A program made the position numbers and the translations under genes. Positions 1 to 8,386 of a stretch of 8,386 bases of DNA are shown here, in pieces. Source of the stretch: Deltaproteobacteria bacterium (lineage in GTDB: Bacteria; Desulfobacterota; Desulfobacteria; C00003060; C00003106); the NCBI GenBank assembly GCA_019314005.1, contig JAFDAE010000175.1, forward strand, positions 1 through 8,386, written 5' to 3'. How positions within the stretch are numbered: the stretch's first letter is position 1; each line of letters begins with the position of its first letter. The notes beneath the pieces were generated by a model, which ran no database searches, had not been told where the DNA came from, and worked only from the letters and a program-made list of their open reading frames with translations.

Positions 1-702
1 GAAAGGAGCCTGGTCCATGCTTTTTCTTTGTCGGGTTGGTAATAGAATACAACCCCATCCATAGATGGTCTGCCGTCATAATAATCTTCGTTCGCCACGA
101 GAACAACTTCTTTCTCGCCATTTCTGTAGGCGAATTTAAATGGGCCGGACCCAATAGGATGGTTGTAATAGTCGATTTTGTCTCCATTGGATTTTGGAAT
201 AATCTCGAAGTCCCAGATTTTTTTAGGGAATTCAGGAGCATTTCTCTTGAGGCGTATGCAAATAACAGTATCTGATAAAAGGTAGATCTGGTCTATTAAA
301 GAGGACATGGAAGAACTAATCGTGCGTAAAGGGGTCTCCAATGAAAACTTTATATCCTTTGAAGTAACAGGCTGTTTGTTGTGGAACAAAGCGTCTTTTC
401 TGAGGTGGATAGTCCAGGTAAAGCTCATGGGATCATAGGTCCATTTGGTGGCCAGGTCCGGTTCAAGTTCTCCGCTTGGATTTGGTACAAAAAGATAACT
501 ATACAGCAGAGGAAAGATATGGTTTGAACCGGACCCAAGAACCTCTGTGGGATTCAAAGATGTGAATGGGGCGTTGACATCATACCGGAGGATATTTTCA
601 TTTTGCGGGATTTTAGTGTCAGAAGTGACGTCAGATTTTTTACAGGACGTAAGAGGGCATATAAGGCAAATACAGAGTAGGAACAAAGTCAAATGTCTAA
701 GC

Positions 703-917
703 GAGACCTTTACATAACTGCCATTATGAGCGCTATGCTTCACTTCGTGTCCGTGATGCGGCGTCAGGCTTCAAACTATGCACGAAGTGAAGCGTCAGCG
801 CTATCCTCAAAATACCCAATGTATTCCTCCGGTTAAAGTTTTCGCCTTTCCCCGGCGACGGGATTTCACTTCGTTCAACTTGCCTGACGAAAAAATGTCG
901 CGTTATGCAAAGGTCTC
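703..917. mobile_element. MITE-like element A (215 bp) with TIRs and TAAGC target duplication
   Basis: The ends are a 16-bp terminal inverted repeat with one mismatch: GAGACCTTTACATAAC at 703-718 and its complement GTTATGCAAAGGTCTC at 902-917. TAAGC directly flanks both sides (698-702 and 918-922), as expected for a 5-bp target-site duplication. No transposase is encoded, so it would be mobilised in trans. The interior contains a 13-bp perfect inverted repeat (737-749/781-793) and a 48-nt core (803-850, minus orientation) shared with element B at 7618-7759. Small ORFs can be read on both strands but look like repeat translation, not genes. I do not assign the parent IS family. Confidence 0.85.
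737..793. repeat. Internal inverted repeat of MITE A
   Basis: GCTTCACTTCGTG at 737-749 is perfectly complementary to CACGAAGTGAAGC at 781-793, with a 31-nt loop. Less regular outer pairing involves AGCGCT on both sides. On the minus-strand transcript this stem contains the GTG (743-741) that could restart translation of the interrupted lipoprotein gene, so pairing would tend to hide it. Confidence 0.7.
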
Positions 918-959
918 TAAGCAGGGTTGTCATAGCTTTCAAGAAAATGTTCTTAGCCA

Positions 960-2828
960 TTAAAACTCAAACCTCACCCCACCTTCGACCCACCGGTCCG
1001 GCTGGGGCCAGACCGCACGATACACGTAATTGCTGTTGGTCAGGTTGTACACGGCGGCAAAGAGGCTCACCTTTCCATGGCGCTCAGGACAGGGGAGGGT
1101 GACCTGCAGTAGATAGTCGAGGATCATGCGGTCGTCTTCGGTTTCAGGGTAGGTAGAGTTATGATCGATATATTTTCCGTTAATGGAGTGTGTCATCCAT
1201 TTATAGGTATAAGCGGCCGAGACATTGAACGTCTTTCTCGGGATATCATTGATTGCCGTGTTTGTCTCCTCATCCGTTACGTGGACGTAGCTTCCGCCAA
1301 ATGCGAGGCGCAGCCCGAAATCAAAGTTTGCTGATATGCTTCCCTCTACGCCTCTACGGGTGACTTCGTCGATATTTTCGTATCGTCCGGTGTCGCTATT
1401 CCAGTCGATAAGATCGTCGACTTCCGCACGAAAGGCGTTCACCTCAAGTCTCAGGAATTTGATTGGCTGGATTTCAACGCCGAGTTGATAATTTATTGCA
1501 ATCTCAGGGTCGAGGTTCGGATTGGTTGAGAGCTCGTTAGGGTCGGGGGCTGAGAACCCTTTGGCGACCTGTGCGCGGACAAGGGCGTTGTATTCTGCGA
1601 TACGATAGACCACGCCGCAGGACGGGCTGAATTTGCCGCCGAAATCTCTGTTGTCGTCGTAGCGGAGTCCCGCGTTAAGAGAGATGTCGCCCACGGTGAG
1701 GGTATCATTGGCATATGCCGCCCAGTTTCGGGTGTGGCCGTCAAGGTCCGAACCCCACACCTCGGAGAGATAATCGAATCTGCCCCAGTCCTCGTCAAAC
1801 CCGAGGTTAAGGGTGTTTGTTGCCCCGCTCGTATGGTTCACACGGGCGCTGACGCCCCAGATCTCATCTTCGTAATCGTTGTAGATCTCCGGATCACTGC
1901 CATCAAAAAAGATATCGATGACCGAGCTATCAAATTGATGATGCCTCCCCTCAAGGGTAAAAGTAAGGTTATCGGCAGGCGAGGTTTCAAAGAGAAGGCG
2001 CTGGTACGAGCGACGCTGATCAATGTCATCCCACAAACTCGGCCAGTTAGGGACGGGGTCTTCACTCTCGCCTTTATCATAGCTGTACGCAAAGTTGAGG
2101 CGGCTTGCCGTGCCTAATTCGTAATTGAGCTTGGCATATACGGCATCCTGCTTGTATTCGGTGTAGTCAATAAATCCATCGCTTTCGTCATGGGTGAGGG
2201 AGAGGAGGTAGCCAAAACCATCCTTTGTACCGCTCACGGTGCCGCGGCTCTTTGAGGTCCTGTGTTCTCCGTACGAGGTGCGGACATCTGCCGAAAACGG
2301 CTTTGTTTTGTCCGGTTCCTTGGTGATGATATTGATCACACCGCCCAGCGCGGAGCCCCAGGCAGAGGAGGCCGCCCCTTTGTAGATCTCAATCCGGTCG
2401 ATGGTATCAATCGGTATGTAAGAAAGGTTTGTTCGGGGATTGAGCAGTTGGTTGAGAGGAACGCCATCCTGATAGACCGCCACGTGCCTGGTGCTCGATC
2501 CCTGGATGCTGGCCGTGGTATCGCTTCCCAATCCGGCGCCGAACTCCACGTAGACACCCGGTATGTACTGGAGTACTTCGGCCGCGTTGGAGACCGGCAT
2601 TTTTTCTATGTCTTCTCTGGTAACAACGGTGATGTTGGCCGCTATATCCTGTCTGGGGGTCTCCGCACGCGTGGCAGTGACCACAATCTCTCCTAATTGA
2701 TAAGCCTCTGGCTCGGATACCGCATCCTCAGCCTGCACATTGCAAGAGAAGATAACGAGAAAAAAGAAAGCAAGAATAAACCATGACTCACCGCAAAGAC
2801 GCAAAGAACGCAAAATTTTAAAGCTCAT
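960..2828 (-). CDS. TonB-dependent outer-membrane receptor, BtuB/siderophore-receptor-like
   Basis: The product is a 622-residue outer-membrane transporter that would take up a scarce chelate or cofactor using TonB-ExbBD energy. Residues 1-33 form a signal peptide with a hydrophobic core (WFILAFFFLVIF) and likely cleavage after VQA. A TonB box GEIVVTATR lies at 46-54. The plug domain (about 55-165) has typical blocks such as AEVLQYIPGVYV, VAVYQDGVPLN and IDRIEIYKGAASSAWGSALG, with GGVINIITK closing it. The rest is strand-rich barrel sequence ending in aromatic Phe, the usual outer-membrane C-terminal signal. I chose ATG 2828 over TTG 2864 because an AAGGGG Shine-Dalgarno lies 8 nt upstream and the TTG lies inside a heptamer repeat. 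The stop overlaps the start of the downstream lipoprotein gene (TAATG). Length and plug resemble cobalamin receptors, but a family-5 binding protein next door argues for a peptide- or metal-chelate-like ligand; the substrate is unresolved. Confidence 0.93.
   Translation of the reverse strand: MSFKILRSLRLCGESWFILAFFFLVIFSCNVQAEDAVSEPEAYQLGEIVVTATRAETPRQDIAANITVVTREDIEKMPVSNAAEVLQYIPGVYVEFGAGLGSDTTASIQGSSTRHVAVYQDGVPLNQLLNPRTNLSYIPIDTIDRIEIYKGAASSAWGSALGGVINIITKEPDKTKPFSADVRTSYGEHRTSKSRGTVSGTKDGFGYLLSLTHDESDGFIDYTEYKQDAVYAKLNYELGTASRLNFAYSYDKGESEDPVPNWPSLWDDIDQRRSYQRLLFETSPADNLTFTLEGRHHQFDSSVIDIFFDGSDPEIYNDYEDEIWGVSARVNHTSGATNTLNLGFDEDWGRFDYLSEVWGSDLDGHTRNWAAYANDTLTVGDISLNAGLRYDDNRDFGGKFSPSCGVVYRIAEYNALVRAQVAKGFSAPDPNELSTNPNLDPEIAINYQLGVEIQPIKFLRLEVNAFRAEVDDLIDWNSDTGRYENIDEVTRRGVEGSISANFDFGLRLAFGGSYVHVTDEETNTAINDIPRKTFNVSAAYTYKWMTHSINGKYIDHNSTYPETEDDRMILDYLLQVTLPCPERHGKVSLFAAVYNLTNSNYVYRAVWPQPDRWVEGGVRFEF
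2784..2816 (-). repeat. Dispersed TTTGCGT-type repeat read as receptor signal-peptide codons
   Basis: On the minus strand this reads TTTTGCGTTCTTTGCGTCTT followed by TGCGGTGAGTCATGG, with three spaced TTGCG units. From memory, runs of this kind are a common dispersed, usually intergenic, bacterial repeat. Here it is in frame and encodes receptor residues about 5-16 (ILRSLRLCGESW), supplying the basic N-region of the signal peptide. Confidence 0.55.
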
Positions 2829-4489: not shown

Positions 4490-4581
4490 ATTATTAAATC
4501 CCCTGGGAGTTGCAAGTAGTATGTGAAGGTCTCTCTCAATGAGCGAATCTATGTCGTTGCGATGGCAAGTATTAAGGTAAT

Positions 4582-4590
4582 GGAGGTATA
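4582..4590 (+). promoter_or_regulatory. Ribosome binding site of hybrid kinase copy 1
   Basis: GGAGG followed by TATA precedes ATG 4591. The equivalent bases in copy 2 (ATGGAGGATAA at 7823) are used as coding sequence instead, so the two copies appear to begin differently. Confidence 0.65.
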
Positions 4591-6171
4591 ATGGAAGGAA
4601 AGCGTACACATAAAAATTCGAAGCGAACTGAAGAGTCAATCAAAGCTTCCTATGATGAACTTAATCAAATATTCAACAGCACAGCTCCCGGAATTCGCGT
4701 AGTTGACAAGGACTTTAACTTGGTTCGCGTTAACGATACATTTTGGAATTTGTCTGGGATAAGCCCGGAAGAAGGCATGGGCAAGAAGTGCTATGAGGTG
4801 TTGAGCGGTCCGAGCTGTCATACTTCGAACTGTCCGCTGGTCAAGATTCTCAGTGGAGAGAAATGCGTTGAATGCGATGTTGAAATGACACTCGACAACG
4901 GCGCCAAAATCGATTGCTGTGTAGCGGCAACGCCCTTTGTGGGCAGTAATGGCAAGCCGATCGGCATTGTCGAAGCTATCAGCGACGTTACTGATCGCAA
5001 GAGGATTGAGGAGGAAGAAAAGAGCCGCGCAATACAACTGCAGCATGCTCACAGGATGGAATCTGTCGGCGCTTTTGCCGCTAAGATTTCCCACAGGTTT
5101 AACAATCTGCTTATGGGTATTCAGGGGTACTCTTTAATGTTCATGGATATCGATTCTTCAAACCCGCATTTTGAAAAGCTGCAAGGTATAACGGAACTCG
5201 TCAGGAAAGGCGCGGGGTTTACACAACAACTGTCAGACCTTGCAGTTGCCCACAAATACGATGCCAAACCGACCAGCCTCAACGAGCTTATTGAAAAGAC
5301 TCTGGAGGTATTCTCCCGTACCGGAAAAGATATAAAGATTTATACAGAATATGAAAAGGAAATTTGGCCGGCTGAAGTAAGCCGACGACAAATTCAACTG
5401 GTGCTCGCAAACCTTTATGTTAATGCCCGGGAGGCTATGCCGGGGGGCGGTAATCTCTTTATCAAGACTGATAATGTTACGCTTGATGAAAATGATGCCA
5501 AAGCATTTAATGTGACACAGGGTAACTACATTAAGCTATCTATAACCGACACGGGAATCGGCATGGATGAAGTGACACAGCGCATGATATTTGAGCCCTT
5601 TTTTACTACCAAAAATATAGGGGAAGCGGTCGGCCTTGGTCTGTCAGTGGTCTATACCATTATCAAGTGTCACGGGGGGGGTATCAACGTTGACAGTGAG
5701 CCGGGCATGGGAACTACTTTTTATATTTATCTGCCGGCCTCAGAAAAAGAAACAATAAAAGAAGAGAAAACGTCGGACCAACTAAGGAGAGGTAACGAGA
5801 CCATCCTTCTTGTCGATGATGACGAGAGGGTCATATGGGTTGCTGAACAGCTTCTCAAAACACTCGGCTACAGGACCCTATTGGCGAAAAGCGGCAAAGA
5901 AGGCATAGAGATCTATAAGAAGAATAAGGACAAGATTGATATGGTCATCCTCGACATGATTATGCCGGAGATGGATGGTAGTGAGACTTATGGCAGGATA
6001 AAGGAGATAAACCCTGATGTAAAGGTCCTGCTTGCAAGTGGATACAGCATGGATGAGCACATAACAGAATTGTTGGACCGCGGTTGTAACGGTTTTATCC
6101 CGAAGCCGTTCCGAATCAAAGGCTTGTCAGACAAGCTAAGAGAGATACTGGACGAGACAATTGAAGATTGA
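4591..6171 (+). CDS. PAS hybrid sensor histidine kinase with C-terminal receiver (copy 1)
   Basis: The product is a 526-residue signalling kinase without obvious membrane segments, so probably cytoplasmic. A short coil (1-25) leads into one PAS domain (about 20-137) containing a Cys-rich segment: C67, C76, C81, C92, C95, C109 and C110. The dimerisation/phospho-acceptor helix has the H-box SHRFNNLL with His168. The ATPase domain has N278 (VNAREAMP), the G1 box DTGIGM (320-325), the F box FEPFFTTK (334-341) and the G2 box VGLGLSVV (347-354). A receiver follows (about 403-526) with D409-D411, phospho-acceptor D455, S483 and K505, so phosphate may pass internally to D455 or on to another regulator. 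It is driven by the sigma-54 promoter at 4474 and is divergent from the sigma-54 activator. The last codons (ETIED) are contributed by the heptamer repeat. A near-identical second copy begins at 7823. Confidence 0.95.
   Translation: MEGKRTHKNSKRTEESIKASYDELNQIFNSTAPGIRVVDKDFNLVRVNDTFWNLSGISPEEGMGKKCYEVLSGPSCHTSNCPLVKILSGEKCVECDVEMTLDNGAKIDCCVAATPFVGSNGKPIGIVEAISDVTDRKRIEEEEKSRAIQLQHAHRMESVGAFAAKISHRFNNLLMGIQGYSLMFMDIDSSNPHFEKLQGITELVRKGAGFTQQLSDLAVAHKYDAKPTSLNELIEKTLEVFSRTGKDIKIYTEYEKEIWPAEVSRRQIQLVLANLYVNAREAMPGGGNLFIKTDNVTLDENDAKAFNVTQGNYIKLSITDTGIGMDEVTQRMIFEPFFTTKNIGEAVGLGLSVVYTIIKCHGGGINVDSEPGMGTTFYIYLPASEKETIKEEKTSDQLRRGNETILLVDDDERVIWVAEQLLKTLGYRTLLAKSGKEGIEIYKKNKDKIDMVILDMIMPEMDGSETYGRIKEINPDVKVLLASGYSMDEHITELLDRGCNGFIPKPFRIKGLSDKLREILDETIED
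4607..5151 (+). repeat. Direct repeat, left copy (kinase 5' half)
   Basis: This segment aligns with 7839-8386 at a constant offset of 3232, becoming 3235 after a 3-nt difference near 5130 (GYSL versus GYASL). I judge it roughly 95% identical by eye, including scattered silent changes. The repeat presumably continues past the right window edge. Confidence 0.9.
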
Positions 6172-6247
6172 AGATTGAAGAATGAAGGAAGACATGATAA
6201 ATAGTCAATCTTCAATCGACAATCTTCAATCGACAATCTTCAATGAT
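6159..6247. repeat. Inverted heptamer repeat arrays after the kinase gene
   Basis: AAGATTG-type units in 7-nt phase (6164-6191) are followed by six units in the opposite orientation: CAATCTT/CAATCGA alternating from 6206 to 6240, then CAATGAT to 6247. The two arms could pair into a long imperfect hairpin in RNA. No T-run follows, so I do not call it a terminator. The kinase stop codon (6169-6171) lies inside the first arm. Confidence 0.75.
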
Positions 6248-7539: not shown

Positions 7540-7617
7540 AAGATCCTCCGTATTTTATCCGCAATAATTGAGGATTGTGATTGTATAAAGATTAATATAC
7601 TAAAACAATATACTCTT

Positions 7618-7759
7618 GAGGCAGTTTCAAAACGTTCAATTTTGTCCAAGGTCAAGAAAGGCGAAGATTTTAACCGCAGGAATACTTTGGGTATTTCGAG
7701 GATTAAAATCTGAGCCTGACGCAGAGATTGGGCAAAAGGGGACATTTTGAAACTGCCTC
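7618..7759. mobile_element. MITE-like element B (142 bp)
   Basis: The terminal inverted repeats are GAGGCAGTTTCAAAACGTTC at 7618-7637 and the complement of GACATTTTGAAACTGCCTC at 7741-7759: the outer 15 bp are perfect, with weaker pairing further inward. It encodes no protein. The core 7656-7703 matches the 803-850 core of element A (other strand) at 43 of 48 positions, and GCCTGACGC follows in both. I see no clear target duplication. It sits 63 bp upstream of the second kinase copy, where a sigma-54 promoter is found in front of the first copy. Confidence 0.72.
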
Positions 7760-7822
7760 TCATGTCTTTGCAAACAAAGCGGGTTGGGTATGTGTGCCTG
7801 CAAAAAAGGTAATGCAAAAGCA

Positions 7823-8386
7823 ATGGAGGATAAGCTGCCACATAAAAACTCGAAGCAAAGTGAAGATTCAATCAAAGCTTCCTATGATGAACTTAATCAA
7901 ATATTCAACAGCACAGCTCCCGGAATTCGTGTAGTTGACAAGGACTTTAACTTAGTTCGCGTTAACGATACATTTTGGAATTTGTCTGGAATAAGCCCGG
8001 AAGAAGGCATGGGCAAGAAGTGCTATGAGGTGTTGAGCGGTCCGAGCTGTCATACTCCGAACTGTCCGCTGGTCAGGATTCTCAGTGGTGAAAAATGCGT
8101 TGAATGCGATGTTGAAATGACACTCGACAACGGCGCCAAAATCCATTGCTGTGTGGCGGCAACGCCCTTTCTGGGCAGTAATGGCATACCGATCGGCATT
8201 GTCGAAGCTGTCAACGACATTACTGATCGCAAGAGGATTGAGGCGGAAGAAAAGAGACGCGCAACACAACTTCAGCATGCTCACAGGATGGAATCTGTCG
8301 GCGCTTTTGCCGCTAAGATTTCCCACAGGTTTAACAATCTGCTTATGGGTATTCAGGGGTATGCCTCTTTAATACTCATGGATATC
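7823..8386 (+). CDS. PAS hybrid histidine kinase copy 2, 3' end outside window
   Basis: The first 188 codons are visible. They contain the same PAS domain with the Cys triad (CYEVLSGPSCHTPNC) and the H-box SHRFNNLL, cut off within the dimerisation helix. Apart from the first 20 residues (MEDKLPHKNSKQSEDSIKAS here) there are only about 16 amino-acid differences from copy 1, for example S-to-P in the Cys segment, D-to-H before the CC pair and an extra Ala in GYASL. The start is less certain than in copy 1. ATG 7823 is preceded by AAAAAAGG with a long 13-nt gap, and an in-frame ATG at 7790 is possible. No sigma-54 promoter lies in the 283 bp upstream, which hold element B and AT-rich DNA instead. 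Whether the full kinase is intact cannot be seen. Confidence 0.88.
   Translation, partial: MEDKLPHKNSKQSEDSIKASYDELNQIFNSTAPGIRVVDKDFNLVRVNDTFWNLSGISPEEGMGKKCYEVLSGPSCHTPNCPLVRILSGEKCVECDVEMTLDNGAKIHCCVAATPFLGSNGIPIGIVEAVNDITDRKRIEAEEKRRATQLQHAHRMESVGAFAAKISHRFNNLLMGIQGYASLILMDI
7839..8386 (+). repeat. Direct repeat, right copy (kinase 5' half)
   Basis: This is the partner of 4607-5151. Similarity fades into the first codons, where the two starts are remodelled, although short stretches such as AAGGTAATG and GAGG..ATAA upstream suggest that the ancestral duplicated unit began further left. Confidence 0.88.

Follow-up and report, generated by a model that had tools for sequence, protein, structure and literature searches.

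A type II MITE in a lipoprotein gene and its family, with one palindromic body under several classes of ends

The window, that is the whole stretch of 8386 bp that was analysed, comes from a bacterium probably related to sulfate reducers and carries at positions 703-917 a 215-bp element that is a type II MITE. As an insertion event, in which a MITE breaks a gene or gives it a new start, this is nothing out of the ordinary. The main interest probably lies in the family to which the element belongs, in which the MITE body stays constant while the ends, and so probably the transposases, vary. We are highly confident in a joint explanation in which an IS5-type MITE, mobilised in trans, inserted into a lipoprotein gene, and in which one body is found under seven end classes, has been served by several related transposases and carries small cassettes. 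The composite make-up of 703-917 and the presence of a sister element with other ends at 7618-7759 go beyond the preliminary description of this DNA.

The element lies on the minus strand and belongs to the GAGACC end class. An inverted-repeat search places its terminal inverted repeats at 902-917 (minus strand, the end nearer the original gene start) and at 703-718 (plus strand, the other end, with one mismatch); the arms are 16 nt long and 15/16 positions pair (94% complementary). Copies of the target duplication TAAGC, read from the sequence, stand at 698-702 and 918-922. Under an equal-base model with an arm spacing of 30-300, an inverted pair of this kind together with an exact 5-bp flanking repeat is expected about 2.5e-5 times by chance in 8386 bp. 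The coordinates given earlier for the MITE and its duplication are correct, and both the arms and the exact 5-bp repeats are found. The element is below 500 bp, has terminal inverted repeats and contains no transposase gene; in a listing of frames of at least 60 aa, those touching it measure 61-75 aa, the binding-protein frame at its edge excepted. TAAGC agrees with the 5-bp repeats of its class, multiple copies were counted in relatives, and likeness to an IS is confined to the ends, which are described as the only part that type II MITEs have in common with an IS (PMC10969869, available part). Folded as single-stranded DNA, 703-917 gives z = -5.66, and 0/200 shuffles fold as well. Its core hairpin (803-850, minus strand) recurs at 7656-7703, 90% alike over 48 bp, and in elements of other genomes. 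In phage and plasmid collections the element has no match at E 1e-5, and among viral contigs searched with the receptor none was confirmed. Two viral loci (L034 and L035) each contain one match to a 17-nt end pattern, which we took as chance after reading the surrounding sequence.

The GAGACC class is abundant. The 15-nt end sequence (both strands, at most 1 mismatch) has 90, 92, 37 and 44 matches in 4/4 genomes, against 0 for a reversed-pattern control, and the matches divide between the strands as 47+43, 51+41 and 18+19 in the three small genomes. With 40 candidates scored in each, 3/3 genomes of relatives contain at least 46, at least 55 and at least 37 matches to the element, and the best full-length matches in three genomes reach 90, 86 and 82%. 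When at most two candidates are scored per genome, 121/291 relatives of genome G265 match at E 1e-6, in most cases with the core as the only matching part.

These copies also carry target duplications. End pairs with a spacing of 30-420 bp number 90; exact repeats of at least 5 bp flank 50 of them, and if one mismatch in 5 is allowed the number rises to 69, including one pair whose flank is cut. For core-bearing GAGACC elements an exact 5-bp duplication is seen in 48/89 and one of 6 bp or more in 0/89, against 0.18 expected from cross-pairing of flanks; the remaining 41/89 lack an exact 5-bp duplication. A first GAGACC set gave 33/65 against 0.19 expected. In a set of 48 sites the duplications are AT-rich (GC 0.33) and varied, any one sequence occurring at most 2 times. 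The preliminary description had proposed looking for other copies with different 5-bp duplications, and this is what the search returned. Few GAGACC insertion sites appear to be intragenic: in a test of 65 elements that is blind to insertions near gene ends, such as the one in the window, and that scored the window's own element on the wrong strand, sites open in phase on both sides numbered 5/57 at 50 codons, 1/54 at 70 and 0/50 at 90.

The second element of the window (7618-7759, plus strand, 142 bp) has the same body and is likewise palindromic. It shares the core of 703-917, has other ends (GAGGCAGTTTCAAAA) and lies between sensor-type genes. Its flanks, TCTT and TCAT, are perhaps a decayed 4-bp duplication, and its fold (7617-7759) gives z = -8.38. 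A search with its 142 bp matches 34/297 genomes at E 1e-7, the genomes being drawn from the phylum of G265 with at most two candidates scored in each. Around the element, the first part of a PAS/histidine-kinase gene is present twice, at 4574-5151 and 7806-8386 (93% identity). This looks like a duplication whose copies are separated by a LuxR-type PAS gene and the second element.

Altogether 132 elements with recognisable ends fall into seven pattern-defined classes: GAGACC 89, GTGCC 15, GGSTACC 9, GAGSCAG 7, GTGTCC 6, GGGTACC 5 and GAGCCTC 1. The classes were defined after the elements had been inspected, and six of the seven are small (1-15 elements). The body is usually 141-142 bp long under all seven, and in every class tip and core are most often 54 nt apart. 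Duplications differ by class. Exact 4-bp duplications are found in GGSTACC (5/9, 0.38 expected), GAGSCAG (4/7, 0 expected) and GGGTACC (3/5, 0.5 expected). Exact 6-bp duplications are found in GTGCC (7/15, 0.86 expected) and GTGTCC (3/6, 0 expected), the cut of the GTG class having been moved by one base between counts, which turned the duplication from 4 into 6 bp. The single GAGCCTC element is without a duplication. A stricter core pattern leaves 21/106 cores without an end class; with a looser one, 612/755 distinct matches lack two recognised ends or have too short a flank, and many of these 612 must be chance matches or cut flanks. One GGGTACC-class element (L018) has a further insert in the left arm, a length of 191 and a tip-to-core distance of 87.

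Most length variants of GAGACC elements arise because cassettes of 22-29 bp sit at a few fixed places of the hairpin. Lengths cluster at 142, 164-165, 187-188, 193-194 and 216. An alignment of 64 GAGACC elements resolves a 142-bp base, a 29-bp left-arm cassette, a 22-bp cassette behind the tip and, in the right arm, a third cassette that is the inverse of the 22-bp one; the hairpin tip reads either AATAC..GTATT or TCCGCC..GGCGGA. In the window these optional parts are M1 (850-879, minus strand, net 29 bp, left arm), M2 (782-803, minus strand, 22 bp, behind the core hairpin) and M3 (728-749, plus strand, the inverse copy of M2, right arm), all placed by alignment. The AATAC..GTATT tip without any cassette is seen in 13/64 elements (11 of 142 bp, and two of 175 bp with another insert). 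All three cassettes occur together in 3/64, namely the window copy with the AATAC..GTATT tip, and L048 and L091 with the TCCGCC..GGCGGA tip. Some GAGACC elements have other inserts, or a cassette at another place. The 22-nt cassette is itself dispersed: at no more than 1 mismatch it has 46 matches in genome G141, is present in 10/14 genomes (reversed control 0) and stands without a GAGACC end within 150 nt at 8/14 loci, GAGACC ends alone being scored. It thus behaves as a small dispersed repeat, of about 20-27 nt and found also outside its host repeat. RNAalifold recovered only the four-pair tip from 55 cores and so gives no support for a more extended conserved RNA structure.

An IS5-family transposase is probably the mobiliser of 703-917. 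In our explanation a transposase of this family (DUF772/DDE) would recognise GAGACCTTTG ends, duplicate 5 bp and move the MITE in trans. DUF772 is found in 51/146 genomes, of which 30 loci were examined. One IS5-type transposase gene, truncated at a contig edge (L233), is followed by GAGACCTTTGAAAA, a single GAGACC end; it scores 176.4 bits against NF033581 (cut-off 140). Two ISs are complete, at 1288 and 1289 bp; their left ends are GGG..CCTCTAAAAAT, and their 4-bp duplications read TTTA and TTAA. The transposases of L233 (GAGACC) and L236 (GGG) both lie above the NCBIfam IS5_4 cut-off and are 30% identical. An inverted-repeat scan, whose 11 rows from 45 loci mostly look like chance, adds one DUF772 IS with GAGACTGTCGAAAAA ends and a 5-bp duplication, and two other DUF772 ISs with other ends and 6-bp TANNTA duplications, a form shared by most GTGCC-class duplications. 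The right group thus contains enzymes that duplicate 4, 5 and probably 6 bp; the enzyme for most end classes is one that we infer. ISNme1, an IS5 element, has the end GAGACCTTTGCAAAA in Table 2 of PMC4596501 (seen as an extract).

MITE ends match IS ends by pattern. When both window elements are compared by blastn with L233, L234 and L236 (E 1), there is one 15-nt match, at E 0.21 and outside the IS. Neither 15 DDE_Tnp_1 loci nor 30 DUF772 loci yielded a complete IS bounded on both sides by GAGACC, and the DDE_Tnp_1 loci were dropped as a source of the parent IS (0/15 with paired GAGACC ends). End pairs 1637 and 2400 bp apart were also rejected as a parent IS, as they show no matching duplication and enclose host-type frames with no transposase seen.

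Because the end classes differ in duplication length (4, 5 and 6 bp), several related transposases probably moved one body. The body of about 142 bp, its ends and their duplications are observed directly; the several enzymes are putative. We find it fairly probable that the 142-bp palindrome is a chassis freed from any single transposase, which keeps its length, wears several kinds of ends with 4-, 5- or 6-bp duplications, spreads through what is probably Desulfobacterota and docks small repeats and alternative tips.

How the ends came to differ can be read in two ways, and on the sequences these appear to fit about equally well. The first would have the elements swap ends, either through gene conversion or through template switching on the palindrome, with the body thereby moving from one transposase to another; we rate it slightly short of an even chance. 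It is favoured by the re-aligned loci, 27/30 of which match inside only, with similarity ending at least 7 nt short of both tips, and by the identical spacing across classes. Arms that are 97% alike (36 nt) stand beneath unlike ends, GAGACC in L265 and L270 and GAGSCAG in L060. The two ends of one element are identical in 28/64 cases, with 12.3 expected across elements, but such agreement also follows from whole-element copying. Changes in the arms tend to be complementary: in 45 cores 204/225 pairs are, against a shuffle mean of 179.7, and 0/5000 shuffles reach 204 in this purpose-made test, which retains the relatedness of the elements. Against this stand the finding that, where the left arm has changed, a fully complementary right arm is present in only 6/18 cores, and the fact that ends of different classes are not unrelated.

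The last point leads to the second reading, in which one old MITE lineage would have kept pace with diverging IS5-type transposases, its ends drifting with them and none being exchanged; the window would then hold a plain MITE insertion. We hold this, too, only tentatively, at just under even. In register and with the core excluded, ends of different classes are 40-80% alike and arms 64-89% (medians), the ends being above the 25% expected by chance; GGGTACC and GGSTACC ends are close, at 73%. The constant tip-to-core distance is what substitution would leave, and the two candidate parent transposases are related. The nearest arm belongs to the same end class in 74/91 elements, a figure to be read with the uneven class sizes in mind (54/91 are GAGACC). 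What speaks against drift is that the nearest arm lies under another class in 17/91, at up to 97% likeness, and that the window and locus L095 of genome G194 each contain both GAGACC and GAGSCAG elements.

The minus strand of the window encodes a response regulator of the sigma-54 type, a TonB-dependent receptor (960-2864, an open frame directly upstream of the binding protein) and a family-5 solute-binding protein of which the first part is visible (3-743, running off the window), the last two placed by ORF list and profile match. The visible part of the binding protein matches SBP_bac_5. The element sits 15 codons into this gene, behind the receptor. When it is removed with one TAAGC (220 bp; 220 mod 3 = 1), a single frame results: it starts at an ATG that overlaps the stop codon of the receptor (TTTTAATGG), passes the lipobox LTSC and continues as the binding protein. 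The frame and the protein letters of this reconstruction had been given correctly beforehand, and the ORFs, the lipobox and the SBP_bac_5 match agree with the receptor/binding-protein unit and interrupted lipoprotein start described there. The insertion is thereby borne out; its being 'recent' is not established to the same degree, as it goes back to the perfect duplication alone.

Whether the gene is 'damaged' also needs qualification. Its original lipoprotein start is interrupted: the frame from the original ATG is now truncated to 75 aa (733-960, minus strand, from the ORF list) and ends on a TAG inside the element, at 733-735. Gene death is less sure, because an in-frame GTG supplied by the element at 741-743, which opens the binding-protein frame as (start)KHSAHNGSYVKVSLRHLTLFLLCICLICPLTSCKK, overlaps the broken frame's stop. 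Since the restarted and truncated frames overlap by 11 nt, termination-reinitiation is possible. The gene may thus have survived, the element providing start and n-region and the binding protein still being made as a lipoprotein, which we regard as unlikely. The in-frame GTG is followed by an n-region with K, K and R, a hydrophobic stretch and the LTSC lipobox; the 11-nt overlap and a frame that is open as far as the window edge point the same way. However, the ribosome site before the GTG consists of GGA only, six nt ahead, and an open frame would be expected anyway after a recent insertion. We consider it likelier that the gene probably lost its normal start and that the binding protein is reduced or absent, with a weak restart from the codon inside the element as a possible exception.

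Relatives provide empty sites. A genome scan with the receptor yields three loci, two from Desulfobacterales MAGs (58% and 52% identical) and one distant Parapedobacter receptor; the closest receptor gene found has 73% DNA identity, and the phylum and kinship of the compared genomes are inferred from the two MAGs. The receptor was compared with 291 genomes, which include G001 and G002, and matches 36 of them at E 1e-60. In both MAGs (L001, L002) a regulator-like frame, the receptor and an open binding-protein frame are followed by two further frames. A profile scan of L001 identifies the frames after the receptor as SBP_bac_5, radical SAM/SPASM and MFS, and those of L002 resemble them by eye, the scan having covered L001.

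The spacer behind the receptor was scanned in 24 loci (L001, L002, L036-L047 and L078-L087), several of which are one place seen twice; L042, L046 and L084 have no receptor-end match and were excluded from the count. Five distinct places, each in a different genome, have a binding-protein motif (at most 3 mismatches) no more than 700 nt from the receptor stop, at distances of 117, 117, 109, 287 and 300 nt. The corresponding distance in the window is 357 nt, or 137 nt after subtraction of the 220. None of the five spacers (0/5) carries the MITE ends or core. At seven other places a search of the 700 nt behind the receptor did not reveal the motif, and the contig of the G265 receptor locus ends 162 nt further on. 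The empty site anticipated by the preliminary description is therefore present in relatives, as orthologous sites, not as the same strain without the element.

The frames behind the binding protein occupy 13843-16370 in L001 and 13848-16387 in L002, being in L001 the radical SAM/SPASM protein and an MFS transporter. The best NCBIfam match of the former is a geopeptide maturase, below the cut-off, and the full-length L001 binding protein comes closest to nickel and staphylopine-metal binding proteins, also below their cut-offs. To judge from these matches, a modified peptide or a metallophore may be what the receptor/binding-protein unit deals with.

Further repeats are present in the window. 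Between genes, at 2847-2893 and 6156-6244, TTCAATC/GATTGAAGA-like units form arrays in which both orientations occur, and a short repeat, ACCGCAAAGACGCAAAGAACGCAAA, lies at 2790-2814 in the leader/signal region of the receptor. The part of the receptor query containing it has matches in many compared genomes, two of them in L132. Small repeats are thus found in the leaders of two adjoining secreted-protein genes, as ACCGCAAAGACGCAAAGAACGCAAA sits in the receptor leader and the MITE in that of the binding protein. Rfam at gathering cut-offs gives no match in the window.

Small dispersed repeats of cyanobacteria are reportedly very short, and some are said to lie inside other repeats. Our cassettes can be likened to them by description, not by sequence, both being very short and dispersed. 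Such repeats (Elhai 2008) are named in the consulted portion of PMC3116915. Among known MITEs, Chunjie of Geobacter uraniireducens (178-235 bp) is similar in its many copies and in keeping its ends and direct repeats; it disrupts a phosphate uptake operon, as the window MITE does a receptor/binding-protein unit, and interchangeable ends are not mentioned in the part of its description at hand (PMC10969869), the comparison being with that description and not with its sequence. BrickBuilt, ATR and ISNme1 (IS5 family; excerpted text of PMC4596501) resemble the window MITE in the end sequence GAGACCTTTGCA(AAA); here ends alone are compared, and they differ from it in that a minisatellite lies within BrickBuilt and ATR is an AT-rich repeat. 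The Tn3-derived TIMEs, according to extracts of PMC4133298, are likewise non-autonomous and mosaic, but their ends are alike and the core varies, whereas in the present family the body is alike and the ends vary. A literature text search with five core, tip, cassette and end strings returned no match, and the family is not described in the titles and abstract openings of the MITE and mosaic literature among the matches listed.

A usual MITE has conserved ends and filler inside. In the family analysed here this is reversed, the body being kept while the ends vary. It therefore offers a testable case of how a transposon parasite comes to use another helper enzyme, and of whether the hairpin body is what is kept.
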